Origin: a virus
Length of the DNA stretch: 21,205 nt
IMG/VR virus record: IMGVR_UViG_3300030328_002927
Coordinates: 1-21,205 of that record
Direction: 5' to 3' (one strand)
The translations under genes and the position numbers were made by a program. Shown piece by piece: positions 1,725 to 16,410 of this stretch (positions are counted from its first letter, which is position 1; the number at the start of each line of letters is the position of its first letter). The notes beneath the pieces were generated by a model, which had not been told where the DNA came from, made no database searches, and saw only the letters and a list, made by a program, of their open reading frames with translations.

Positions 1725-2471
1725 CTATTCGTAGCTTACGTTTCTGTCTTGAGCACCCATCATGTAATCAAGAGTTGTTACTTTAGTGCCTGTAGCGTCA
1801 CCTGACAAACTCATAGCCATCATTTTCATATTAGCTGTTGGAATGTTTGTTTGTGAAGCACCCACTTCTTGTCTGTTAATATAAAATCTAACAGTATCAG
1901 TGGATGTGCCTTTAGTTGCTTTAAAACCTAAAGTTATATAGGTGTCATCAGCTAATGTCGCTTTTGTTGTATCACTAAATGTTACAGTGGTTGGTGTACC
2001 ACTTGCTTCAGTAACACCAGAGATAACTGCACTTCCATCAGCTAATAGAAATCCTATAATGTTTGCTGATGCTAAAGCTGCTTCAGGGTTTGTTGTAAAT
2101 GTTTCTGTTAAACCGACCAATAAATCCATTTGATCTGCGTCAGATACTTTTACTCTTGTTTCATACCACAATGATTTACCTGCAGTTGATGGTAAAGCAA
2201 AATATTCTTGTTTACCTTGAATAGAAGCACCATCATTTTCTGTTGTGCCTGCAGAAGTTAATGTTACTTCACCAGCAGTTGAGTCCGCTACGATAGCGAC
2301 TGCAGCTCCTGAGTCTTTGACGATTGTCCATCTAAGGGTTTCGTCTACTGCTCCATGATCGTAATCATCGAACTGAATGAATTGATCATTCCATCTAGCC
2401 GTATTTAAATTTTCAAAAGACGAACGTGCTGATGAAAATAATATAGGGCCTTTAAAGTGTGTTCCAGCCAT
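1725..2471 (-). CDS. putative virion structural protein, lectin-like beta fold (248 aa)
   Basis: The protein opens with MAGTHFKGPILFSS, a start typical of marine-phage structural proteins. The body reads like a concanavalin/jelly-roll-type sandwich: FALPSTAGKSLWYETRVKVS, then DLLVGLTETF, ITLGFKATKG and DTVRFYINRQEVG. This pattern is common in phage capsid-fibre or adhesin domains; the fold is inferred. Its ATG has a strong Shine-Dalgarno (AAGGAGG, 7 nt upstream). It is the first gene after the terminator that follows the capsid gene, so it probably starts a separate transcript or depends on read-through. No catalytic motif is seen. Confidence 0.7.
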   Translation of the reverse strand: MAGTHFKGPILFSSARSSFENLNTARWNDQFIQFDDYDHGAVDETLRWTIVKDSGAAVAIVADSTAGEVTLTSAGTTENDGASIQGKQEYFALPSTAGKSLWYETRVKVSDADQMDLLVGLTETFTTNPEAALASANIIGFLLADGSAVISGVTEASGTPTTVTFSDTTKATLADDTYITLGFKATKGTSTDTVRFYINRQEVGASQTNIPTANMKMMAMSLSGDATGTKVTTLDYMMGAQDRNVSYE

Positions 2472-2483
2472 AATAAACCTCCT

Positions 2484-2570
2484 TGGTTGTATAGACCTTA
2501 ACCATACAGTCTCTATACCGTCTGCTAGCTCAGTGGTGTATGGTCGTTATGCTAGACCTTCAATATGGCA
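2484..2570. promoter_or_regulatory. structured intergenic spacer between terminator and 248-aa gene
   Basis: This spacer holds a 7-bp inverted repeat (ACCATAC at 2501-2507, GTATGGT at 2538-2544). It also holds an 8-bp direct repeat TAGACCTT (2492-2499 and 2553-2560). On the minus strand a weak promoter candidate is TTGAAG-N17-TACACC. A promoter is expected here because the upstream terminator would otherwise isolate the downstream genes, but no good -10 box is visible. Confidence 0.3.
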
Positions 2571-2606
2571 TAAAAAAAGGGCGCAGTCAAAGACATACGC
2601 CCTTTT
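2571..2606 (-). terminator. intrinsic terminator after the major capsid gene
   Basis: In the minus-strand transcript a perfect 9-bp stem AAAAGGGCG/CGCCCTTTT (2598-2606 with 2575-2583) with a 14-nt loop runs into seven consecutive U residues. This is the classic rho-independent form. It lies 22 nt downstream of the capsid gene stop and marks the end of the head-gene transcript. Confidence 0.85.
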
Positions 2607-2628
2607 AAAGATTAGGTTTTAGTTATGC

Positions 2629-3534
2629 TTACGCACCCGGTGAACCGAATACACATCTAGGATCAGAGAAACCAAATGAATATCTCTCTCTAGCTTTGTA
2701 TCTTACGTTTCCTGTGTCGAAATCACCTTCCATTGAAGTTCTAATTGGACTTCTTTGGAATAATTTGAATCCGTTAGGAATGTCGGTTTTAATGAAGAAT
2801 GCATCTGGGTCAGTTAAGTAGTTGTTTACTGTGTATCCCTCAGGAATCATACCCATGTTTCTTGTTGCGTTTACATCATTGTCAGCAGTGCCTGGTCTGA
2901 AAGCAGACTCAGTTAATCTGTCAGCAACGAATTGTAACTCAGAAGGAACAATAAGTTTTCTACCTTGAGTAGAGATTAGTAAACCTCTCTCGTCTACAAA
3001 TGCAGCAATATCAATTAGAGATTGCTCTAATGATGCTTCATTAAGATCAGCCGCTGTAGCAAGTTCATTTCTCAATGTGCCTGCAACAAGTGGGTGTGAA
3101 TCAGAAAGAAGAGCAACACCGTCACCACCAGGGAAACTGTCATCAAAACCATTGTTTAAGATGTTTGCAGCTTTTACCTGTTTTGTGTTTGCCATGGAAC
3201 GTGCAAGTGCTCTTGTATATCTTGCTGAGATTCTGTCATAAAGATTATCTTCAACAGCTTCCTCAGTGATTGCAAAACCAAGTGCAATTGTTTCATGTGT
3301 GTAACGTGCTGTGAAAGTTTCTGTTGCATTGTCATAGACAATTGATCCACCTTCACTCTTCGTTCTTGCATTACCAAATCCTGATAACATTACTTCTTCT
3401 TCGAATGCACGATCTGAAGTTTCTGTCTCAAAGATTTCTGCGTGTTGAGCGTCGTAGCGCCCATACTCCAAGCCGAACAGGGCGTTCAAACCTGGCTCTA
3501 ACTCTTTAACGAGTTGACTTCTAGAAATAGCCAT
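2629..3534 (-). CDS. major capsid protein (HK97 fold, Mu gpT-like)
   Basis: This 301-aa protein is the main shell subunit of the phage head. It is very acidic near the N-terminus and has capsid-like features: a GSIVYDNATETFTARYTHET strand region (about 62-82), the helix GFAITEEAVEDNLYDRI (about 86-102), SDSHPLVAGTLRN in the P/A-domain region (about 144-156), and PSELQFVADRL (about 196-206). The HPL...N signature and overall pattern match the Mu-like major head subunit group. Position supports the call: it follows scaffold and decoration genes and is followed by a strong terminator. The Shine-Dalgarno AGGAGGT sits 6-7 nt before the ATG, as expected for a highly expressed gene. No long cleavable N-terminal delta domain is seen, consistent with a separate scaffold. 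Confidence 0.88.
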   Translation of the reverse strand: MAISRSQLVKELEPGLNALFGLEYGRYDAQHAEIFETETSDRAFEEEVMLSGFGNARTKSEGGSIVYDNATETFTARYTHETIALGFAITEEAVEDNLYDRISARYTRALARSMANTKQVKAANILNNGFDDSFPGGDGVALLSDSHPLVAGTLRNELATAADLNEASLEQSLIDIAAFVDERGLLISTQGRKLIVPSELQFVADRLTESAFRPGTADNDVNATRNMGMIPEGYTVNNYLTDPDAFFIKTDIPNGFKLFQRSPIRTSMEGDFDTGNVRYKARERYSFGFSDPRCVFGSPGA

Positions 3535-3545
3535 AATTTAACCTC

Positions 3546-4124
3546 CTATATGCCTGTAGTATCTCTATACTGATGTTTGTTAATTCTAACAAGAATGTTA
3601 GCGTTAGCAGCAGTATAGTCACTATTGTCTACATCAGTTGATAATGCGACAACAGCGAAATTAGATGCACTGCTAGTTGCAAATGTACCACCATCAACCA
3701 CAACGTTAGAAATACCTGATGTAGTATCTCCTGCGCTATATGTTGCGATGTTACATGTTGAACCAACCTGTGCTACTCCAGCATTTGCGTCATCTACTTT
3801 GACTTCAAATACCACATCTGGATCCGTGATTACGTTTGCTACGATATCACTTGCTACGATGGCGCCTGGATAATGATTTGAAAAAGTTGGTTTAGACGTT
3901 GTAGGGTCTGTATAAAAGCAACCGTTAAAAATACCAATTAGTTCAGCACCAGCAGAGGATCCACGAGAAATCGATCCGTTTGCATTTAATACAACTGGAT
4001 CACCTTGAAAGATTGAATTTGTCTCGTTACTTGCAATTGTCAGCTCTTGTTGGCCTTGACCATTATAAGCTGCACCTAGCATTTGAACAGGACGAAATCC
4101 AAAGTTTCCTTGTTGATTTGCCAT
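3546..4124 (-). CDS. head decoration/stabilisation-type protein (192 aa)
   Basis: The N-terminus MANQQGNFGFRPVQMLGAAY is a signature I associate with small head proteins of marine phages. The rest is Gly/Ala/Thr/Asn-rich and beta-like (ELTIASNETNSIFQGDPVVL, GSISRGSSAGAELIGIFNGC), consistent with a protein that decorates or cements the capsid surface. It is encoded directly upstream of the major capsid protein, with a strong Shine-Dalgarno (AAAGGAG, 7 nt before ATG) and only a 12-nt gap, so the two are probably co-translated in large amounts. The exact location in the virion is inferred. Confidence 0.68.
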   Translation of the reverse strand: MANQQGNFGFRPVQMLGAAYNGQGQQELTIASNETNSIFQGDPVVLNANGSISRGSSAGAELIGIFNGCFYTDPTTSKPTFSNHYPGAIVASDIVANVITDPDVVFEVKVDDANAGVAQVGSTCNIATYSAGDTTSGISNVVVDGGTFATSSASNFAVVALSTDVDNSDYTAANANILVRINKHQYRDTTGI

Positions 4125-5992: not shown

Positions 5993-6176
5993 CAATTTTC
6001 TCCTCTTGTTCCAGCAGGCGAGAAAGCTCCTGTTGGCATGCCTCTAGCATGTGTATCTTCCCTAAAATATACTTGTAATCTTCAATTTTATCAACCCCTA
6101 CAATAAGATTTTCTAAGAGGTTTTCTTTTAAGCTTTTAAGTTCTTTTTGATAATTGTGTAATACAAATACGCTCAT
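5985..6176 (-). CDS. small coiled-coil protein of unknown function (63 aa)
   Basis: Short, almost entirely helical and charged (QKELKSLKENLLENLIVGVD near the start, QQELSRLLEQEEKIDD at the end), with a heptad-like pattern and no membrane segment. Family not recognised. It is tightly coupled on both sides: its ATG overlaps the methyltransferase stop (ATGA) and its 3' end overlaps the GroES-like start. A good Shine-Dalgarno for the GroES-like gene lies within its last codons. The overlaps are the best evidence that it is real. Confidence 0.65.
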   Translation of the reverse strand: MSVFVLHNYQKELKSLKENLLENLIVGVDKIEDYKYILGKIHMLEACQQELSRLLEQEEKIDD

Positions 6177-6796
6177 TTAAGACAATTCAGTCCTGGAACT
6201 GCTTTCTCAAAAAATTTATAGCTATCATTTTTACTAGCGTACCATGTTTGTTCTTGACTTCCATTAATACCTAAACCACCTGCCATTACTGCTGGTAATG
6301 TCATCTTTACTGCTTCTGCAACAGACGCTAAATTATAATCATCACCAAACATCACACCATCTGGTTTTAGTTTTGACCACCAGTTTTGTATATCGTCTAT
6401 AACTGGCTCATATTCATGAGCACCATCTACCATAATATAATCGACGCTTGCTTCTTCAAACTGTTCCAATATTTTAGTATCATCTGATCTACCTTGACAA
6501 ACATGCACCATATTTCTTCCAATAAAATATTTTAGATTGTCTCTAAACATACTTGAAAAATCTTGTGGTAAATTTAAGTTTGCATGTTCAGATGATCCTG
6601 CAAAAGTATCAACACAATATATTTTCACATTCTCTTTATTTGCGTTGACTAAACTCGTAGCTAAGTAATGTGTTGATCTACCTAAGAAAGATCCTATTTC
6701 AACTATCTTTCCATCCTCAGGTATCTGATCAACAATCATATCGTAAGTTTCTGAGTAGTTGAACCACCCAGGTATTTTGAAATAACTGTGTTTCAT
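6173..6796 (-). CDS. class I SAM-dependent methyltransferase (Methyltransf_24 type)
   Basis: This 207-aa single-domain enzyme has a recognisable Rossmann methyltransferase core. Motif I is VEIGSFLGRST (about 32-42). The acidic end of beta-2 is CVDTFAGSSEH (about 61-71). VDYIMVDGAHEYEPVIDDI (about 118-136) has the VDGAH signature of the Methyltransf_24/CmcI-like group. KPDGVMFGDDY (about 144-154) is the following strand with acidic residues. The substrate is unknown; the absence of DPPY-type motifs argues against a classical DNA adenine methylase. A small-molecule, glycan or protein target is more likely. It sits, unusually, inside the head-gene run. The upstream inverted repeat places its ribosome-binding site in a hairpin loop (separate entry). 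Confidence 0.82.
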   Translation of the reverse strand: MKHSYFKIPGWFNYSETYDMIVDQIPEDGKIVEIGSFLGRSTHYLATSLVNANKENVKIYCVDTFAGSSEHANLNLPQDFSSMFRDNLKYFIGRNMVHVCQGRSDDTKILEQFEEASVDYIMVDGAHEYEPVIDDIQNWWSKLKPDGVMFGDDYNLASVAEAVKMTLPAVMAGGLGINGSQEQTWYASKNDSYKFFEKAVPGLNCLK

Positions 6797-7039: not shown

Positions 7040-7434
7040 TATTTCTTTTTAGTGATTAAACCCATAGCACCTTTTGCCCCCTTTATACCAAAGCTGGCCG
7101 AGCAGGCAATGTATAAGAGATGCTTATAATAATCAGGAAGTGAGTGTAAGGCTTCAAACCCTGCTTTGATATGTGGTGTCCATCCGGGTATGAAGACTAG
7201 CACCGCTGGAATTAACAGGGCTAGTAAAATTACCTCGTCTTTCCAGCTCCCCTTCATTTGGTCGACAGCACTGGCTTCCCACGAAATTTTTCCTGCAATT
7301 TGTTGCTCTTTAAGTGACTTTTGTGCTTTTATTTCTGTTAAGGCTAAGTCCGCTTTCGCTTTTTTTGTTTCAACGAAGCCTTTTACCGTATCTCCCAACA
7401 AAGATGTTATGGGTCCTACTAATAAATTAAACAT
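7039..7434 (-). CDS. holin (GTA-type three-TM holin family)
   Basis: This 131-aa protein matches the pattern of the 'Holin of 3TMs, for gene-transfer release' family. It has an amphipathic N-terminal segment (MFNLLVGPITSLLGDTVKGF) and a charged helix (about 22-50). Next come the motif SWEAS...QMKGSWKDE (about 51-67), a strong transmembrane segment VILLALLIPAVLVFIPGW (68-85) and a second hydrophobic segment KHLLYIACSASFGIKGAKG (104-122). Holins make the inner-membrane lesion that times lysis. ATG at 7434 is preferred (AGAGGT 4-5 nt upstream) over a GTG at 7440. The start overlaps the portal stop by 8 nt. Placement between portal and head-assembly genes, with no endolysin nearby, is unusual. 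Confidence 0.78.
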   Translation of the reverse strand: MFNLLVGPITSLLGDTVKGFVETKKAKADLALTEIKAQKSLKEQQIAGKISWEASAVDQMKGSWKDEVILLALLIPAVLVFIPGWTPHIKAGFEALHSLPDYYKHLLYIACSASFGIKGAKGAMGLITKKK

Positions 7435-9889
7435 TTTCACCTCTATTCTGTTGATTTTGACGTTGTAATGCTACATCTGCACGTAAATTAGCTAAATCGT
7501 AGTCTTTTTTTAGCTTTTGTGAGTCTAAAACTTGTTTGTAATCAAATTGATTCTCTTTTAATGCTTGATTTTCACCTTTTAACTGCGCATCCATCTCCAT
7601 TTCAGCTTGTCTTAGTGCTAATTCTTGTTGTTTTAATAAAACAAGTGGGTCCATGTTTTGATCTTGAAGTGCTTCTTGCTCTTCGCCAACCATTTGTTCA
7701 GTTATTTTTACAATTTCATTGTCAATTGCCTCAGCTCTTTGCATTTGTAAAGCTTGTAATGCTTCTGGCGGTATTTGTTCACCAAATTGTTGACGTAATT
7801 TCTCTGCTTCTTCAACCATGGCTTGATCAACAATTTGTGTAGCTAATAAAGATACATGTTGATTAATATGAGAAACTAAATTCATAATAGCCATTGGGTT
7901 TGCTTTCACTAAAGCTGATGACATAAAAGTTCTATGTGCTTTTATGTGCAACTCATGGTTTTGATCTGGAAATGCTTGAAGTTGTGCACCACGTAAAACA
8001 ACACTATGTTCCATTGCAGGGTCTTGTGGTTGTGGTCCTTGCGGTATTGGTAAGATTTGTTCAACATCTTTTACACCTAAAGCTATGTACATTCTTCTAT
8101 ATGCTTCATACAAATTGTGCATTTGCGGATTTGTTTGTGCAAGTTGTAGTTGATTTTGTGCCAACGTAACACGTTGAGACATTGAAAAAATATTTGGATC
8201 GGATACAGGTAAGATATCAATATTATCATCAAAATCTTGTATCTTAATTTCTCTAGGTCCACCTGTAACATTATAAGGATACATAGGTGGTAGAACTAAT
8301 TTGAAAATTTTAGCTAGTAATTCAAATTCTTTTTTCTGTGCATAATGTAATCTTTTATGTACAGCAGACATGACTTTAGTACCACGTTCCATAAGGGCCA
8401 TAGTTGTACCTACAGGTGTTTGTGAACTACCTATTTCTGACAACTGCATATCGGCAACAGTTGCAAACTGTTTTGCTGCGTCTACACAAAAACCTAAAAG
8501 TTGCATTAGAACTTGATCTGGACCTTTGTAAGGTAAAGGCATCAATGCTTCACGTATTATTCCATTAGGTGCATCAACATCTCTAAACTCACCAGGTTGT
8601 AATGGTTGATCATCATCACGAATACGTAAACCACGTGACTTAAAACCAGCAGGTAAGTTAGATAAGGTTCCTGCATCAAGTAATTGTCTTAGAGCAGTAG
8701 TGGCAGTTCTTGTCAAACCACCAATCATGTGTATTAGACCAAAACCATAAAAACCTAAACCAGGTAAAAACTTATAATGAACAAAGTATTCATTTTTTCT
8801 TTTTAGAGCATCACGCTCGTTGTAGTTTCGATAGATTGATAGAACTTGATTTGATGTTCTTTCAATAGTTACAACGTAAGGTAATTTAATTCCGCTAGGC
8901 TCACCATTTCTAGGATTAATATCTTCAAAACCTTCAAGATCTAAATCGACATGCATCTCATAAAGTTCTGCCATATCATCCATTCTGTAATCATTTGGAT
9001 TGGTGCCATCTATTTGATCTTTTTTATCTTGTATATCACTAGCTTCGTCATCATCGTAAGCTTGTATTTCAATATCTCGATAAAATCCTGAAACTTGTTT
9101 TTTTCTTAAATCATTCATTGACATCTTGACAATCTGCGTAATACGTTCGCAAGTGTCTAAATCAGATGCACCGTAAGGCACAATCATATCTTCTGCAGGA
9201 ATAAATTTTGATGTCGCTCTTTGTAAGACTTCATCGTAATAAACTTTTTTAAATGCACTACCTGACAAAGGTAATTGAAATAACAGTTGATCCATCTCTG
9301 GATTGTAATCTTCCATGACATGAGTAATCTCATAATTCATGTAATCTTTTACACGTTCTGCTGCTTGTTGTAGTTGTGTTGTGTTTGCACCTACTACTTG
9401 TGTTCTTACAGGACCATCACTAGGTAATAGTTCCACATAAGCCATCGCTTGAAACTGTGTGACCGCTTGAGCTAATACAGGATGACTAACGCTTGCAGCA
9501 CCACGAAACGGACGAGTGCGTTCTTCATATTTAAATCCAAGTAAGTCTAAACCTTTAGTGTAAGCTTGTTCCCACTCTTCACGAGAGGATTTATCACTCT
9601 CTACTCTTTCAACAAGTTGATTAGAAAGATCTTGTAAAATTGCATCGTCTACAATTTCAGCTAAGTTAGAATTAAAACCTGAAGCAACAGGCACTTCTAC
9701 TTCACCGACGATTGCAGAACCATCTTCAATAATTTCTACACTGTCTTCGATTTGATCAGGTGATAGATTTACATCAACCTGTGTTCCTACTTCTTCAATA
9801 TCTAATTTATCGTCACCCCCTGCACCTAATGCTTTTGCATCATCGATGTCGGTTGGATTACGTGATGAGCTGTTAAATTTATCTACCAT
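7427..9889 (-). CDS. portal protein (P22-type)
   Basis: This 820-aa protein forms the dodecameric ring at the capsid vertex through which DNA is packaged and ejected. It follows the P22-type portal layout. There is an acidic N-terminal extension (1-75). The wing and clip regions follow (EEWEQAYTKGLDLLGFKYEE, RPFRGAASVSHPVLAQA at about 126-143). The core includes DQLLFQLPLSGSAFKKVYYD (about 200-219), FIPAEDMIVPYGASDLDTCE and LPGLGFYGFGLIHMIGGLTR. A Gln/Glu-rich helical C-terminus (about 690-820) would suit a barrel. Large size and position two genes after TerL agree. The start overlaps the 1620-aa gene by 11 nt and has no strong Shine-Dalgarno, so translation may be coupled to it. Confidence 0.88.
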   Translation of the reverse strand: MVDKFNSSSRNPTDIDDAKALGAGGDDKLDIEEVGTQVDVNLSPDQIEDSVEIIEDGSAIVGEVEVPVASGFNSNLAEIVDDAILQDLSNQLVERVESDKSSREEWEQAYTKGLDLLGFKYEERTRPFRGAASVSHPVLAQAVTQFQAMAYVELLPSDGPVRTQVVGANTTQLQQAAERVKDYMNYEITHVMEDYNPEMDQLLFQLPLSGSAFKKVYYDEVLQRATSKFIPAEDMIVPYGASDLDTCERITQIVKMSMNDLRKKQVSGFYRDIEIQAYDDDEASDIQDKKDQIDGTNPNDYRMDDMAELYEMHVDLDLEGFEDINPRNGEPSGIKLPYVVTIERTSNQVLSIYRNYNERDALKRKNEYFVHYKFLPGLGFYGFGLIHMIGGLTRTATTALRQLLDAGTLSNLPAGFKSRGLRIRDDDQPLQPGEFRDVDAPNGIIREALMPLPYKGPDQVLMQLLGFCVDAAKQFATVADMQLSEIGSSQTPVGTTMALMERGTKVMSAVHKRLHYAQKKEFELLAKIFKLVLPPMYPYNVTGGPREIKIQDFDDNIDILPVSDPNIFSMSQRVTLAQNQLQLAQTNPQMHNLYEAYRRMYIALGVKDVEQILPIPQGPQPQDPAMEHSVVLRGAQLQAFPDQNHELHIKAHRTFMSSALVKANPMAIMNLVSHINQHVSLLATQIVDQAMVEEAEKLRQQFGEQIPPEALQALQMQRAEAIDNEIVKITEQMVGEEQEALQDQNMDPLVLLKQQELALRQAEMEMDAQLKGENQALKENQFDYKQVLDSQKLKKDYDLANLRADVALQRQNQQNRGENV

Positions 9890-12800
9890 ATTCGCCGTAT
9901 ATATCTGTAATTGAAACTAAACTATCTTTATCAATACTTCCACCAGATTTTTTCTTAAACAAGTACATTGGTTCTTCAAGCTTTGAAGGATCAAATGATA
10001 TCGTATACATATCTATTTCACTAGGATTATATTCGATAATTTTAATCATAGCGACGTCTACATTTTCTCCTTCTTTAAGGGGTATTAAACGATAACCGGC
10101 TGAAGTGGTTGGTCCCTCTACAACGTAATAATCCATGAACTGACCTGGTGATATTTCTCTAGTCAAAACTATCTCCCCAGCTTCAGCATTACTTGCTATT
10201 CTTGCAATTTCTTCATCTAGAAACTTATCTCTATCAACATTTGACAATCCCCTTCTAGGTTCTATTTGTTTAAGTGTTTCAAATTCACCATCTGGGTTTT
10301 TGTTTAAAAATGTTAAACCTTTACCGCTTTTACTTGGATCTACAATTTTTTCTATCTCTAATGTGCCACCATATTTTTTTGCAATGTTTTTTAGCTGTTG
10401 AACACCAACCTTATCATATAAGTTTTCAAATTTCTTTTTAGCTTCCTCACTAGACTTACCCCAACGAGGATTAGCACCTACGTTAGCAGGCATGATTGCT
10501 ACTTTGTTAATGCCTTTACCTTTTGCTGCTTTTATTGTTGATTTAATCAAAAGATCTACATAGTCCGCTTGTTTGTTAAAAGGTATAGGTGGAAAAGATT
10601 GAACTTGTTTTAGATTATAACTCGTGGGTAAATATTCATCGGTGTTAGCAATTCTGTTTAACTCATTACGATCGGCGGTGGATGGAACTTTAAAATCTCT
10701 TAAACTTTCTTCATAGTTTGCAGATCGATTCATTGAAGATAAATCCTCAAAGATTTTATTTTGTTGTTGCGCTAAATCAAACACCATAGTCTTATAAGCA
10801 GGATCATTATACTGCTCTACATTAGCCATGATTAATTTATTAATTTGTTCTTGAATAGAATTTAAATTAGCAGTTCGCTCCGGTATTAAATCTTTTGCTA
10901 CAACATTGGGAAAAGGCTGAATTAAGTTATCTGTCTCTAACGCTTCTAATTTAGCTGGAGGATATTTCTGATCAAACAATCTTAATTCATTTTTATAATA
11001 ATCAGGGTTCAAACCACGTTCAGTTTGATCAACAAGTTTAGCACGTTCTCTTTTTAAGGCGTTTATCATTGCAAACAATCGCTCTTGTTCTTTACGAACC
11101 TCAGTCAACATATCTGTTTGCATTTCTTGTATGACGGCTACTGTTTCATTGTTACTATTTTTGTATGTTCCGACACGTGTAAAACCTAAAACGTTAGGTT
11201 CTTCAAAGTGACTTGAATTAACAAACGCTCTTTCTTGACCTGGTAAGGAGGGTACATTTACAACGACTTCAAAATAATCATCTGCTTGTTCATCAATATT
11301 AGCGTTACCTGCACCCTTATGTTTTTGTCTACCTTGATCTGCATTAAAATCTAAAAAATCTCTTGTATTTTCTCCTTGAGGTATGTCGTCTAATTCTACT
11401 GTACGTCGAGTGTTTTTAACCCTTACCTCTAAATTACCTAAGGGGGACGTGTCATAGAGATCTTCTAATTCTTGTTTTGTAATTTTTTTATTAGGATAAA
11501 ATTTTTCTGTGTCTTCTAAGTATTGCAAGATTCCGGTATCTAACATTTCTGCTTCAGGAACTTTTTTACCTTTAATTAAAAACTCTCGCCATCCCTGTGG
11601 TGTCGAAGCTTTTGGTGCATTAGGTAGATTTAATTGATCTAGTAAATATGATTTGAAAAAGAAGTCAGGTCTACCTGCAGGCATGGGTTGTAGTTCTTGT
11701 GATCCGGGCACTCCTTGAGGCATTGGATCTCTTGCTTGTTCTACTTGTTTAATATTTGATGGTGTTGCCATCACTTTTGGTTTTTTAAAAACTTTAAATA
11801 AATTTAATAAGTTAACCGCTTGTAAGTTACCAGAGTCCACGGCTTCTTGAAAATAGTCTTCTCCTTCAAAGGCTGGATCAGGTGAGAACTGTTGTTGATT
11901 AAGATTGGTCAACGGATCACCGCCTATGGCCATACGAACTGGACCGCCATCTTTTAAACTTCTTATGTACCCACCTTCATTTTTAAATACATCGACGGGT
12001 ATATTATTTTCAACAGCATAATTTAATTCATCAAGTAATTTTTTCTTAAACAACTCTACTCTTACCTCGTTAGGTATAGCTTTCATATCTGGAACTCCAA
12101 AATATTCAAAATCTTTCTTACCACCCTTACCGATTCTTACAGGCACAATAGTTCGAATACCTCGATCTTTGTAAATTTTATCTATAGCATTATCTATTGC
12201 AGTTAAAAATTTATCTTGTTTTTTACCTACAAAATCATCAAGATTTATGTTGGCTCCTCTTTGATTAAGTAAAGCAACAAACTCTTCTGTAATGAAATTT
12301 AATCTATCTCCTGTACCTTTACCTTTTTTTGATAAGGTAAAATCCATTTTTTTTGCTTTATTTTGTAAAACTTTATTTTGTCTGAGATCAGCTAATTTAT
12401 TAATAACTGGATCAAATTTTACCTGCATATTGTTGTACACTTGAAATGATGGATTTAAAAATTGGGGTTCTGTAGCTGTGTTAAGTAATCTACCTATTTT
12501 TTTTAAACGACCTTTACCCTCAACTCTTGTGACAAACAGTGGTGTATCATGTGCTTTATCTACACCAACTAATTTATAATCAAGCATACCATTTTTATCT
12601 AATAAATATTTTCTGTACTCAGGTATATTTCCTAATTCTTCTAAAAAATCTCTTGCTTCTTTTTGCATTGCAAGTCTTGTTTCCTCCAAACCTATGAAAC
12701 TTTGAAACTCACTTCTTAACAAATTTATATCATCTGGATCGTATTTAACTTGTTTAAAGAATTGTTCAGGTGTTAAGTTTTCAAAACCTGATGCGTCTTT

Positions 12801-14741
12801 GATGCCTCTGTATCTGTATTGTAAAAAATCCCTAAATAAATTTATTACATCATAATTTTTTTTTATACCTTGACTTTCCGCTAACTGTTTTATGTTTTGT
12901 AAGGTCGCTCTATCAAAGTCATTTAATTTATTTGATTTGACACCAAGAAATTCCAGTTTTTTTTTCATAGGTATTTTGTCATAAGTATTAAAAAAAACAT
13001 CTTTAATCTGTGTTCCTCTTTCAGGTTCTTGAATTAATATGTCTAATAAGGGTTTAAACTTAGGATCATTTCTACGATCTCTTATAGAGTGTCGTGAACC
13101 TTTTAATAGTACACTCAATCTTCTGCCAAGAGCATTCTCACTGTCAAATACTATATCTTGATCTATCAAATCTTTTAATATTTTTATTAACTCAGGATCT
13201 GTTGCAGCACGTCTTGTTGCACCTGCTGTTTTTGATCTAATTGCGTATTGTTTCTCTTTGTAACCAGGTATTGCATTTAAAATACTTTTTGCTCTAGTTT
13301 TTAATCCGGTTTGTGCACCTCTATTTCTTTGTTCTACGATTAATAAATTATCAAACCCATACTTTTCAACTAACTCTTTGGAAGATAGACCCTCGTTCTC
13401 TGGTAAGTTTTGTTTTATGATATTAGCTAATTTATTTGCATTCGTAGCTACTAAATCTGTTTCTGCTTTTGTCGGTCTAAAGACATTTGTAATACCTAAA
13501 TCTATACCCTCTTTTAATAGATTTGATAAAGATTGATTAGAAGCTGCTAATTCAGGTGCCTTTTTTTTAATTAAAGCGGCAGCCTCAACTATAGTGAATT
13601 CTTTTCCTGTTTTCTTTTTTTCTTCAGCAATTATTTCTTGAATTTTTTTTATATCGTCAGGTCTATCAATTAATTTTGTTTTTTTCTTAGGAACCTGAAT
13701 ATTGGAACCACCACCTGGTCGATCAGCAACGTCTAATGTAATTCGTGGAGTTCCCGGCATGCCTGGTGGTCCAGCGGCGGCATCTTGTATTAACGGAAGG
13801 GGTGAGCCACCAAAAATTCTTTTAGCTTCCTGCACGTCAGGATCAAATGCATATGTTTGATTATCTAAAATACTTTTAATGTCAGGCACTCCTGCTTCAT
13901 CAAAATATTTCTTTTTTAATCTTTGTATTAATTTATAAGTTCCCTTAGCAGCCACTCCTCCTAATAAACCTATCCCTGCAAAATCTAAAATATCTAATGG
14001 CACCGTTAGTAAGGCATATCCCTCACCTGCCTCTAATGGCTCTCCTTTTCTCATTTTTCTAAATGCTTTAAATGTATCACCAAAAAGATAATCAGGTATT
14101 TGTGCTAATGCCTCTCCGGCTGTTAACGGAGTAAACCCTCGAGCTATCGCTTCTGCCCTTTGCTCACGATTCATATTTCCAAGTCTAAAACCTAATTCTT
14201 CTAAAATTTGTTTATTTTTTTCTCGCTTCTCTTTTGCTCTTGCTGCTGCTTCTTCAGCTACAATAAAATCATAAGTGTACTCACCGGCTGCCCCAATCAT
14301 TTTTTTCTGTTGGGTAAAATCTTCTTGTTGTCTTTGCTCATAGACAGGTTGCATGGATTGATAGAAAGCACCTGGAACGATATCTTCTATCTCTTGTAAT
14401 TTTTTTTGTGTTTCTCTGATGTCTTTCCCTTCAGAAATAAACTGTGGTACGGGGACCGTGGTCGGTGGTTCTTGATTTAAAGGTTGTATAGGAGCAATAT
14501 CTCTTTCACCTGGTTTTGCTTCTAGTATCTCTTTTCCCAGTCTAATAGCATCTTTCACTGTATATGGGTTATCTTCAGCAAGAATATCAATACCTTGAGA
14601 AATTAAGTAATCTCTTCCTGTTTTATAAAATACTTTTTCTCCCTGTGAGGGAACACCACTGATTGCTTGTAAGGGATCACCTCCATTATCCATGTAGGCG
14701 GGGTCATTTAAGATTACATCATCAAAAGGATTGTAGGCCAT
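9879..14741 (-). CDS. giant polyvalent-type phage protein, possibly ejected (1620 aa)
   Basis: This is the longest gene in the window. Visible parts: a Pro/Glu-rich start (1-110); one hydrophobic segment at about 241-266 (YALLTVPLDILDFAGIGLLG); a Lys-rich helical middle (350-900); a Gly motif DGGPVRMAIGGDPL (about 931-944). Residues about 1175-1215 read SSHFEEPNVLGFTRVGTYK...VIQEMQTDM and about 1384-1420 PPIPFNKQADYVDLLIKSTI...KVAIMPAN. This pair resembles the HFxEPNVLaHvR...EIQSD / PfkktW..LalKrmir.Aa..G.drIaw unit found in large polyvalent proteins of phages (Iyer/Aravind description, from memory). No polymerase, lysozyme or protease motif was identified. It may be an internal virion protein delivered with the DNA; this is inferred. 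It shares a base with the TerL stop (TAATG). Confidence 0.7.
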   Translation of the reverse strand: MAYNPFDDVILNDPAYMDNGGDPLQAISGVPSQGEKVFYKTGRDYLISQGIDILAEDNPYTVKDAIRLGKEILEAKPGERDIAPIQPLNQEPPTTVPVPQFISEGKDIRETQKKLQEIEDIVPGAFYQSMQPVYEQRQQEDFTQQKKMIGAAGEYTYDFIVAEEAAARAKEKREKNKQILEELGFRLGNMNREQRAEAIARGFTPLTAGEALAQIPDYLFGDTFKAFRKMRKGEPLEAGEGYALLTVPLDILDFAGIGLLGGVAAKGTYKLIQRLKKKYFDEAGVPDIKSILDNQTYAFDPDVQEAKRIFGGSPLPLIQDAAAGPPGMPGTPRITLDVADRPGGGSNIQVPKKKTKLIDRPDDIKKIQEIIAEEKKKTGKEFTIVEAAALIKKKAPELAASNQSLSNLLKEGIDLGITNVFRPTKAETDLVATNANKLANIIKQNLPENEGLSSKELVEKYGFDNLLIVEQRNRGAQTGLKTRAKSILNAIPGYKEKQYAIRSKTAGATRRAATDPELIKILKDLIDQDIVFDSENALGRRLSVLLKGSRHSIRDRRNDPKFKPLLDILIQEPERGTQIKDVFFNTYDKIPMKKKLEFLGVKSNKLNDFDRATLQNIKQLAESQGIKKNYDVINLFRDFLQYRYRGIKDASGFENLTPEQFFKQVKYDPDDINLLRSEFQSFIGLEETRLAMQKEARDFLEELGNIPEYRKYLLDKNGMLDYKLVGVDKAHDTPLFVTRVEGKGRLKKIGRLLNTATEPQFLNPSFQVYNNMQVKFDPVINKLADLRQNKVLQNKAKKMDFTLSKKGKGTGDRLNFITEEFVALLNQRGANINLDDFVGKKQDKFLTAIDNAIDKIYKDRGIRTIVPVRIGKGGKKDFEYFGVPDMKAIPNEVRVELFKKKLLDELNYAVENNIPVDVFKNEGGYIRSLKDGGPVRMAIGGDPLTNLNQQQFSPDPAFEGEDYFQEAVDSGNLQAVNLLNLFKVFKKPKVMATPSNIKQVEQARDPMPQGVPGSQELQPMPAGRPDFFFKSYLLDQLNLPNAPKASTPQGWREFLIKGKKVPEAEMLDTGILQYLEDTEKFYPNKKITKQELEDLYDTSPLGNLEVRVKNTRRTVELDDIPQGENTRDFLDFNADQGRQKHKGAGNANIDEQADDYFEVVVNVPSLPGQERAFVNSSHFEEPNVLGFTRVGTYKNSNNETVAVIQEMQTDMLTEVRKEQERLFAMINALKRERAKLVDQTERGLNPDYYKNELRLFDQKYPPAKLEALETDNLIQPFPNVVAKDLIPERTANLNSIQEQINKLIMANVEQYNDPAYKTMVFDLAQQQNKIFEDLSSMNRSANYEESLRDFKVPSTADRNELNRIANTDEYLPTSYNLKQVQSFPPIPFNKQADYVDLLIKSTIKAAKGKGINKVAIMPANVGANPRWGKSSEEAKKKFENLYDKVGVQQLKNIAKKYGGTLEIEKIVDPSKSGKGLTFLNKNPDGEFETLKQIEPRRGLSNVDRDKFLDEEIARIASNAEAGEIVLTREISPGQFMDYYVVEGPTTSAGYRLIPLKEGENVDVAMIKIIEYNPSEIDMYTISFDPSKLEEPMYLFKKKSGGSIDKDSLVSITDIYGEYGR

Positions 14742-16264
14742 TAATAATACTCCGTTTGTCCATGGTCCGTGGGCTCTGGCTCGTAGTCATCGTGCAACGA
14801 TACAAAGTTCCCTTTACGAAACCTTAGTAATGCTTGGCTCATTGAGTCGACTAAGTCGTCGTGTTCACCATGTGGGAACATCGCACATTCTTCGATCATC
14901 TCTTCAGCCCAGCGTTCTTTTGGTACCCACACAGCTCCGCTTTCAAATACAGGAGCAACTGCGTGTACTCTGGACAACTTATCATTGCCTTTGCTAGGTG
15001 TAAAGTTGATAACGGGGATACCGATCTGACGTAATTCTTGTATTAAGGGTAAGCCCGACGCCTTTGCTTCAACGATCACGGACTCCGGTTCCCAGTATTT
15101 ATACTGATCAATAGCAACTTTTTTTAATTCAGGGAACTCAAAACGATCTTTGACCAAATCTAATAAAATTATATTAGGTGTCACTTCATCAGGATAGAAC
15201 ACACCCCACGTTGTAATGGCACTATAGTCACCTGTTTCTTTTTTCGTATATGCTGTGTCATACGATTGTATGATATGAGAGAGCATGGGCATATCTTTTC
15301 TATCCCACTCGTTCCACCACTCACGTTTGATGATCGCCCCTTCTTCACCTGTGGGGTTCTGTTGCCATTGTGCTTGCCACTTTTGTTCCGATAATGATGC
15401 TTTAACTGCTTCGAGTTCTTCTAACTTCCAGTAGTTAGGCCAGACAGGTTTATTGCTGGGTAAGATTGCAGGAAACTCTATCACGTCCCATTGATCCGCT
15501 TTCACTTCACCCATGGCTCGAAGTAAATTGCCTGTTAAATCTTTTTCGCTCCAACGAGTCATGACACAAACAATACTACCACCAGGTTGTAAACGCTGAC
15601 GAGGACCGGAAGTATACCACTCCCATGCATTGTCCATGGCTGTTTGGCTTAGAGCATCTTGTTCGGAATGAGGATCATCAATGATAAGAAGATCAGCGCC
15701 ACGACCAGTAATAGCACCGCCCACACCTGCACCGAAATATTCCCCACCATAATTTGTTTCCCAACGACCCGCCGCTTTGGAATCTTGACTAAGTCTAACA
15801 TCTGTAAATACCGCTTTATACTCCTCACTGTCCATGAGGTTTCTCACTTTACGACCAAAACGATAAGACAGTTCAGCCGTGTGTGTTGTTTGAATGATCT
15901 TGGTCTGTGGTTTGTGGCCCATGAGCCAAGCAGGAAAGAGATAGGACGCAAATTCTGATTTCGTATGACGAGGGGGCATGTTAACAATTAATCTTTTAAT
16001 TTCACCCGATAGTACCTTTTCGAACTTCTCACCGATCCTGACATGGTGCTCACCTTCCACGAACCCTGGCCACACAGTTTTAACGAACGTTATAAAGGAG
16101 TCTCTTGCCTTACTTGCAAGTTCTAATTGTGTCTTTCGGAGTTCAAGTTTTATGAGTGCCTCTTGAGCCTCCTTTTGATCCATAGAGGATACGTCAAAAT
16201 CTACTTTCATGTCAGAATTATTATCATAGATATTATCTGTGTAAATTACAACCGAAGTGCTCAT
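14741..16264 (-). CDS. terL: terminase large subunit
   Basis: This 507-aa protein is the packaging motor and headful/cos nuclease. The N-terminal ATPase has Walker A NMPPRHTKSE (about 95-104; HTK replaces the usual HGK), Walker B LLIIDDPH (about 192-199) and coupling motif VMTRWSEKDL (about 234-243). The C-terminal RNase H-like nuclease has its acidic residues in QSYDTAY (about D336), VIVEAKASG (about E399) and HGEHDDLVDS (about D469/D470). The ATG at 16264 is chosen because AAGGA lies 8 nt upstream. The open frame continues 28 codons to a GTG at 16348 through a G-run tract with no Shine-Dalgarno, which is unlikely to be translated. Its stop overlaps the next start (TAATG). TerS lies 3.2 kb upstream rather than adjacent. 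Confidence 0.95.
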   Translation of the reverse strand: MSTSVVIYTDNIYDNNSDMKVDFDVSSMDQKEAQEALIKLELRKTQLELASKARDSFITFVKTVWPGFVEGEHHVRIGEKFEKVLSGEIKRLIVNMPPRHTKSEFASYLFPAWLMGHKPQTKIIQTTHTAELSYRFGRKVRNLMDSEEYKAVFTDVRLSQDSKAAGRWETNYGGEYFGAGVGGAITGRGADLLIIDDPHSEQDALSQTAMDNAWEWYTSGPRQRLQPGGSIVCVMTRWSEKDLTGNLLRAMGEVKADQWDVIEFPAILPSNKPVWPNYWKLEELEAVKASLSEQKWQAQWQQNPTGEEGAIIKREWWNEWDRKDMPMLSHIIQSYDTAYTKKETGDYSAITTWGVFYPDEVTPNIILLDLVKDRFEFPELKKVAIDQYKYWEPESVIVEAKASGLPLIQELRQIGIPVINFTPSKGNDKLSRVHAVAPVFESGAVWVPKERWAEEMIEECAMFPHGEHDDLVDSMSQALLRFRKGNFVSLHDDYEPEPTDHGQTEYY

Positions 16265-16284
16265 AGTGTAAGTCCTTAGGAGGC

Positions 16285-16313
16285 AAAAAACCCCCCACCC
16301 CCACGGGCACGGG
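16285..16313 (-). promoter_or_regulatory. G-run hairpin with U6 tail in the terL leader (attenuator-like)
   Basis: The minus-strand RNA reads CCC-GUG-CCC-GU-G5-U-G6-U6, ending 20 nt before the terL AUG. The two CCC triplets can pair with GGG triplets in the G runs (with G-U wobbles and one mismatch), and six U residues follow. That gives the shape of an intrinsic terminator or attenuator. The G5/G6 runs could alternatively stack as a quadruplex. It lies in the untranslated leader if the 16264 start is right. Confidence 0.45.
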
Positions 16314-16410
16314 CACAATATCTTGTGGTCTAACCTTAAGGGACTCACTAGATATAGTTATCGGATCAAGTTTGATGGGCTGTAAAGATTGGAGATGCTG
16401 GGAACAGGTG

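Follow-up and report, generated by a model that had tools for sequence, protein, structure and literature searches.

A phage protein encoded between the terminase and portal genes carries an exchanged middle region on a conserved C-terminal module

The gene P0001, which lies between the terminase and portal genes of an uncultured phage, encodes a 1620-residue protein in which residues ~22–928 are a polymorphic cassette, exchanged wholesale between otherwise near-identical phages. The swapped middle looks like an interchangeable tool against hosts or rival phages; it is the strongest feature of the protein and is invisible from one genome alone. The DNA that we analysed, a stretch of 21,205 nucleotides (hereafter, the window), comes from a linear viral record of 39.9 kb, which is probably a fragment because a close relative extends to at least 52 kb. 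Coordinates refer to the window unless another record is named, and P0001, its features and its two neighbors lie on the minus strand.

A coupled gene in a cargo slot

An earlier note on this DNA had placed an open reading frame of 1620 residues between the genes for the terminase large subunit (TerL) and the portal protein. Its coordinates were exact (9879–14741, stop codon included; 1620 codons, beginning at ATG), and PHROG profiles identified both neighbors, TerL at 14741–16348 (E 1e-114) and the portal protein at 7427–9889 (E 5e-50). P0001 begins within the TerL stop codon (TAATG), an overlap of 1 nt, and its last 11 nt also belong to the start of the portal gene. Thus, the three genes are translationally coupled. 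This arrangement recurs in the P0001 family: the portal gene comes next in 93 of the 94 loci fetched, overlapping the C-terminal match by ~8 nt in all but a few, and TerL precedes wherever the contig extends far enough. We found the C-terminal part of P0001 in 152 IMG/VR contigs, with no confirmed copy of the C-terminal module among 84,980 bacterial and archaeal genomes.

By TerL and portal, the closest cultured relatives are the pelagiphages HTVC027P and HTVC023P, phage 023Pt_psg01 and DSL-LC04. It is on account of these relatives, and not of sample records, that we regard the P0001 lineage as one of uncultured aquatic phages, probably marine. The TerL–portal interval of the cultured phages encodes proteins of 483 and 892 aa, of 615 and 751 aa, a "PcfJ-like" protein of 825 aa, or a protein of 201 aa. 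These are non-homologous to P0001, and neither HMMER nor hhalign gave a significant score between P0001 and the slot proteins of the four phages. In this phage group the interval thus serves as a cargo slot, of which the 1620-aa family is one occupant. The earlier note called a protein this large between motor and portal unusual; it is so in size but not in slot, where cultured relatives encode proteins of 201 to 892 aa. A His..Asn likeness to two of these slot proteins, seen by eye, was dropped. The whole of P0001 found no convincing match in Pfam, PHROGs, NCBIfam, PADLOC, the PDB or cultured phages by HMM and tblastn searches. Downstream of the portal gene, a 207-aa ORF (6173–6796) that resembles class I methyltransferases by eye is conserved in two relatives (L028 and L029).

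Wholesale exchange of the middle

We compared 57 family proteins that retain most of the N-terminal and middle region, scoring middle identity over the last 300 residues of the middle. The C-termini were at least 80% identical in 136 pairs, and in 102 of these the middles were less than 30% identical, close to the shuffled baseline of 0.20; in most pairs, C-termini 85–99% identical went with middles of 17–25% identity. Clustering resolved 24 middle types on 10 C-terminal types, and several middle types recurred in independent contigs on different backbones.

The borders of the exchange are visible at the DNA level. Homology from the TerL side extends to about 14673–14711 and then ends; the 5′ border is the conserved first 21 codons (MAYNPFDDVI..DPAYM, 14679–14741). 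At the 3′ border, marked by GGPVRMAIGG (residues 932–941, 11919–11948), nucleotide homology resumes: against three relatives (L003, L005 and L006) it restarts at the identical base, 11957 in codon 929, and against two others (L004 and L013) no more than 22 bases from it. Between L013 and L021, identity reaches 99.93% along 8,799 bp that start at the GGPVRMAxGG codons and run past the portal gene, yet the 2.1–2.4 kb preceding these codons are unrelated. In L098 and L100, a stretch of 1.2–1.8 kb has been replaced, and the DNA flanking it is 97% identical on either side. Where the middle has been replaced outright, TerL and portal remain 90–98% identical. The reverse also occurs, as L011 and L083 share middles of 97% identity on C-termini of only 49%, with portal genes 78% identical in DNA. 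Likewise, the middle of the window's protein is 62% identical to those of L092 and L093, whose C-termini are 48% identical to its own.

The middles are under purifying selection, with dN/dS values of mostly 0.07–0.32 in close pairs and 0.49 in one very diverged pair. Given these values and the full-length relatives that occupy the same slot in dozens of contigs, P0001 is not a chance ORF. When the P0001 middle and two other middle types were searched for outside the slot, they found only near relatives in the same slot. Along the part shared with the 52-kb relative, no replaced stretch, contig ends aside, exceeds the 2.7 kb of the cassette.

Several further observations concern this architecture and its surroundings. 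In L028, the protein is split into two ORFs (3–1847 and 1847–4099 of that contig) just before the border, there GGAVRMAIGG, which suggests that chassis and cassette can be separate polypeptides. A 5′-truncated relative (L051, 2–2683) has the N-terminal region joined straight to the C-terminal module, without the middle. Elsewhere in the window, 190–831 and 1099–2466 have no blastn match in the 52-kb relative, and are thus further variable spots besides the cassette; they cover small ORFs at 270–834 and, following the capsid genes, two ORFs of 200 and 248 aa.

A conserved C-terminal module related to giant phage proteins

Residues 926–1620 (9882–11966) can be aligned across every family member, and for this module AlphaFold gave a usable model (pLDDT 75.7, pTM 0.74). 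It contains an EIQSD-type, GNAT-like domain (residues ~1105–1595, 9957–11429) and ends in a near-invariant tail, GGSIDKDSLVSITDIYGEYGR (residues 1600–1620, 9882–9944). Two motifs quoted in the earlier note lie in the domain, running from H1178 to D1210 and from P1387 onward: HFEEPNVLGFTR...EMQTD (residues 1178–1210, 11112–11210) and PFNKQADYVDLLIK...NLYDKVG..KKYGG (residues 1386–1457, 10371–10586). They had been taken to resemble a domain of large polyvalent phage proteins.

This likeness was borne out by profile comparison with an unnamed domain of giant polyvalent-type phage proteins, the EIQSD domain, which spans about 1785–2000 of PHROG 7348. We gathered the EIQSD set from at least 376 IMG/VR contigs, starting from a weak match to a 4012-aa Microcystis-phage protein. 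By hhalign, the first half of the P0001 C-terminal domain matched it at 98.5% (E 2.8e-15) and the second half alone at 76% (E 2e-5); the best of 15 column-shuffled controls reached 0.9% (E 0.06). As paired by reading the alignments, the two groups have in common the invariant residues Y1156, E1158, H1178, N1183, R1189, E1206, Q1208, T1209 (S in EIQSD), D1210, P1387 and K1400. They also keep the same motif order: NYREV..HWxxPNV..R..EEIQSD, PF..W..LALKR..GYDRVA, FYDK..KKxGG and an IT..PLF end. P0001 differs from the EIQSD proteins as a divergent branch, with HFxEPNVLGFTR and EMQTD, another helical insertion and a conserved tail of its own. Judged from these profiles, the C-terminal domain of P0001 is homologous to the EIQSD domain. 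The latter has no Pfam model and is therefore none of the named LPDs, and none of the named LPD domains in Pfam gave a profile match to P0001 above cut-off. Thus, the proposed kinship with polyvalent proteins holds for an unnamed domain but not for any LPD family named in Pfam.

Structure comparison pointed in the same direction. The top Foldseek matches of the C-terminal module were predicted structures of giant uncultured phage proteins (E 2e-11), one of which carries the name "large polyvalent protein". In the AlphaFold model, the elements follow the order strand 1, two helices, strands 2–4, a 150-residue helical insertion, helix 3, strand 5, helix 4 and strands 6–7, the insertion between strand 4 and helix 3 covering residues ~1210–1366 (10644–11114). 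This predicted order matches that of GNATs, which appeared repeatedly among the PDB structure matches (SSAT, KacT, AtaT, GmvT, NatD and the C-terminal domain of ICL2), albeit with weak scores (Z up to 7.9; Foldseek E 0.46). Unlike GNATs, P0001 has its 150-residue insertion at the position of the acetyl-CoA loop, and inspection of the alignment before the PFNKQADYVDLLIK helix showed the (R/Q)xxGx(G/A) motif of this loop to be absent between strand 4 and helix 3. Because of this absence, we describe the modeled domain as GNAT-like in fold and do not call it an acetyltransferase.

Some proteins outside the family deserve mention. The 4012-aa protein of Microcystis phage Mel-JY33 (L101, 15553–27591 of that record) has the EIQSD domain and is annotated as a "lysin" on the basis of a crystallin motif, an annotation that is probably misleading; Nostoc phage Nsp-JY18 has a stretch identical to a region of this protein. 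In another EIQSD protein (L133, 2752–4611), an ART-PolyVal match that falls below threshold (E 1e-5) comes after the domain; GNAT and ART domains are typical neighbors in polyvalent proteins (PMC5512222). The PcfJ-like protein of DSL-LC04 (L067, 10347–12851) has GGLVDINSLSVAAFAEGG, which resembles the family tail GGSIDKDSLVSITDIYGEYG. The proteins are otherwise unrelated, and this was the only non-homologous slot protein with the "GG..I..DSL" tail motif; the likeness may be due to chance.

Contents of the cassette and proposed role

The N-terminal region (residues 1–350, 13692–14741) is weakly conserved and itself exchanged. It contains the one hydrophobic segment that the earlier note had seen, which we place at residues 243–261 (13959–14015); its Kyte–Doolittle window is the highest at 1.68, the runner-up elsewhere being 0.76. 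Residues ~355–640 (12822–13679), which are polymorphic, are predicted to be a helical, HTH-like array: AlphaFold gave short helices (pLDDT mostly 60–87), the structure search returned sigma-region-4 and other HTH structures at a weak Z of 3–4, and the middles of relatives L052 (E 7e-5), L030 and L078 had HTH matches below cut-off.

The last part of the cassette (residues 644–925, 11967–12812) is a domain that recurs as the last 280 residues of the middle in 38 dissimilar members, at a mean identity of 18%. In the alignment of these members, the only invariant columns are H731 (codon 12549–12551) and N770 (codon 12432–12434), in the pattern HxxP[IL]..N..xQ. Such a pattern is what an active site may leave behind, and it recalls the His-Me finger nucleases. 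HNH (PF01844) and Endonuclease_NS (PF01223) gave no profile match to this record at E values up to 10, with controls matching. The model of residues 1–925 was poor (pLDDT 57.5, pTM 0.40) and left the His/Asn region unfolded, the His731–Asn770 loop being predicted only at pLDDT below 45 where a His-Me finger would have its beta-beta-alpha metal fold; a viral structure search with this model found no match, nor did sequence searches of Pfam and the PDB with the middle. Given the failure of the two nuclease profiles and of AlphaFold to resolve the loop, we infer rather than assert that the middle probably acts on DNA as an enzyme, for instance as a nuclease. The earlier view that the protein holds no recognized enzyme is thus literally correct, yet the GNAT-like fold and the invariant His/Asn domain point to enzymes.

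In phages and conjugative elements, polyvalent proteins have been reported to be injected, to be encoded close to head genes and to include GNAT domains (Iyer et al. 2017, PMC5512222). Like them, P0001 is very large, has multiple regions, is encoded with head and packaging genes and has a domain common to giant polyvalent-type phage proteins; its combination of putative GNAT-like, HTH-like and His/Asn domains would also fit their hallmark of disparate domains in one polypeptide. Unlike them, it has no named LPD, and no metallopeptidase able to process it was detected. It also differs from them in its architecture: at one locus of one viral lineage, the chassis stays fixed and allelic middles are swapped wholesale.

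We tentatively propose, with slightly less than even confidence, that P0001 is a polyvalent-type conflict protein that is made with the head-packaging proteins and carries an interchangeable DNA-directed module. The EIQSD-type, GNAT-like module and the short conserved tail would be the common chassis; the cassette between the first ~21 codons and GGPVRMAIGG would bring in HTH-like arrays, with a putative HTH function, and then the His/Asn domain, whose presumed catalysis would be directed at DNA, probably as a nuclease. The protein would most likely associate with the virion and enter the cell together with the DNA, as suggested by the general argument for polyvalent proteins (PMC5512222) and by the gene position; virion carriage is favored by this position and the late-operon coupling. 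The cassette may then act on host DNA or on that of resident elements or rival phages, and exchange by recombination at the conserved borders would renew its specificity.

The main rival, unlikely in our estimate, is that the cassette is of a homing type. The middle would be an endonuclease that uses HTH arrays to recognize its DNA target and cleaves this locus in co-infecting phages with another allele, whereupon repair copies the cassette in, so that spread and mutual exclusion instead of virion delivery would explain the swapping. The single fixed locus, the borders conserved on both sides, the HTH-like arrays and the invariant His/Asn domain all suit this explanation, which accounts equally well, with no need of a virion, for the recent exchange of alleles between nearly identical genomes; homing endonucleases are also known to serve interference competition among phages (PMC11620839). 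However, no known homing-endonuclease family matches, the cassette lies within a reading frame and is neither free-standing nor a splicing element, and a nuclease-free allele was not clearly seen, except for the partial locus lacking the middle.

We consider it improbable that P0001 is a structural or packaging accessory, i.e., a protein inside the head or at the portal vertex with a fast-evolving, freely recombining middle and no role in conflict. The tight coupling between TerL and portal would suit such a protein, and the conserved tail could bind a head component. A fitted structural role of the middle is nevertheless unlikely, because it is replaced outright between phages whose TerL and portal stay nearly unchanged; moreover, the C-terminal domain is one that giant polyvalent proteins share, and the middles keep their invariant His/Asn pair.

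Far less probable is a classic polymorphic toxin with a neighboring immunity gene, like the MuF toxins of temperate phages, which have been proposed to be head passengers (PMC5576092). P0001 resembles these in having a constant domain and an exchangeable module beside the portal and terminase genes. Yet the variable part of P0001 lies inside the protein and not at its C-terminus, and the 1-nt and 11-nt overlaps leave no space for an immunity ORF, which makes such a toxin–immunity pair unlikely; P0001 also has no MuF domain, and its phages are uncultured and probably lytic. Although every family sequence comes from metagenome contigs, assemblers that joined unrelated middles to common flanks are a highly improbable source of the pattern, as the borders are identical in many independent contigs, middle types recur on different backbones, and the frames stay open for 1300–1620 codons under purifying selection.

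On a bolder reading, which we regard as doubtful, P0001 is a weapon that travels in the virion or homes to its locus. Its fixed GNAT-like chassis would carry any of at least 24 DNA-targeting enzymes, interchangeable members of an undescribed and extremely divergent His/Asn family, which coexisting phages would trade as a single cassette. Both polyvalent proteins and polymorphic toxins of phage heads have been described before. In the literature that we searched, we did not find a fixed-locus allelic series that combines an internally swapped core, an unnamed GNAT-like chassis and a His/Asn core domain. If our reading is correct, a single locus would report which conflict drives fast evolution in the uncultured phages that carry P0001, as the core is exchanged where identity around it can be as high as 99.9%. 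The protein would represent a polymorphic-weapon design unlike MuF, with an internal cassette and no immunity gene, and possibly a new family of enzymes with one His and one Asn as its anchor; it would also offer a hypothesis on the fold of the EIQSD domain, which is widespread in giant phage proteins but unnamed.
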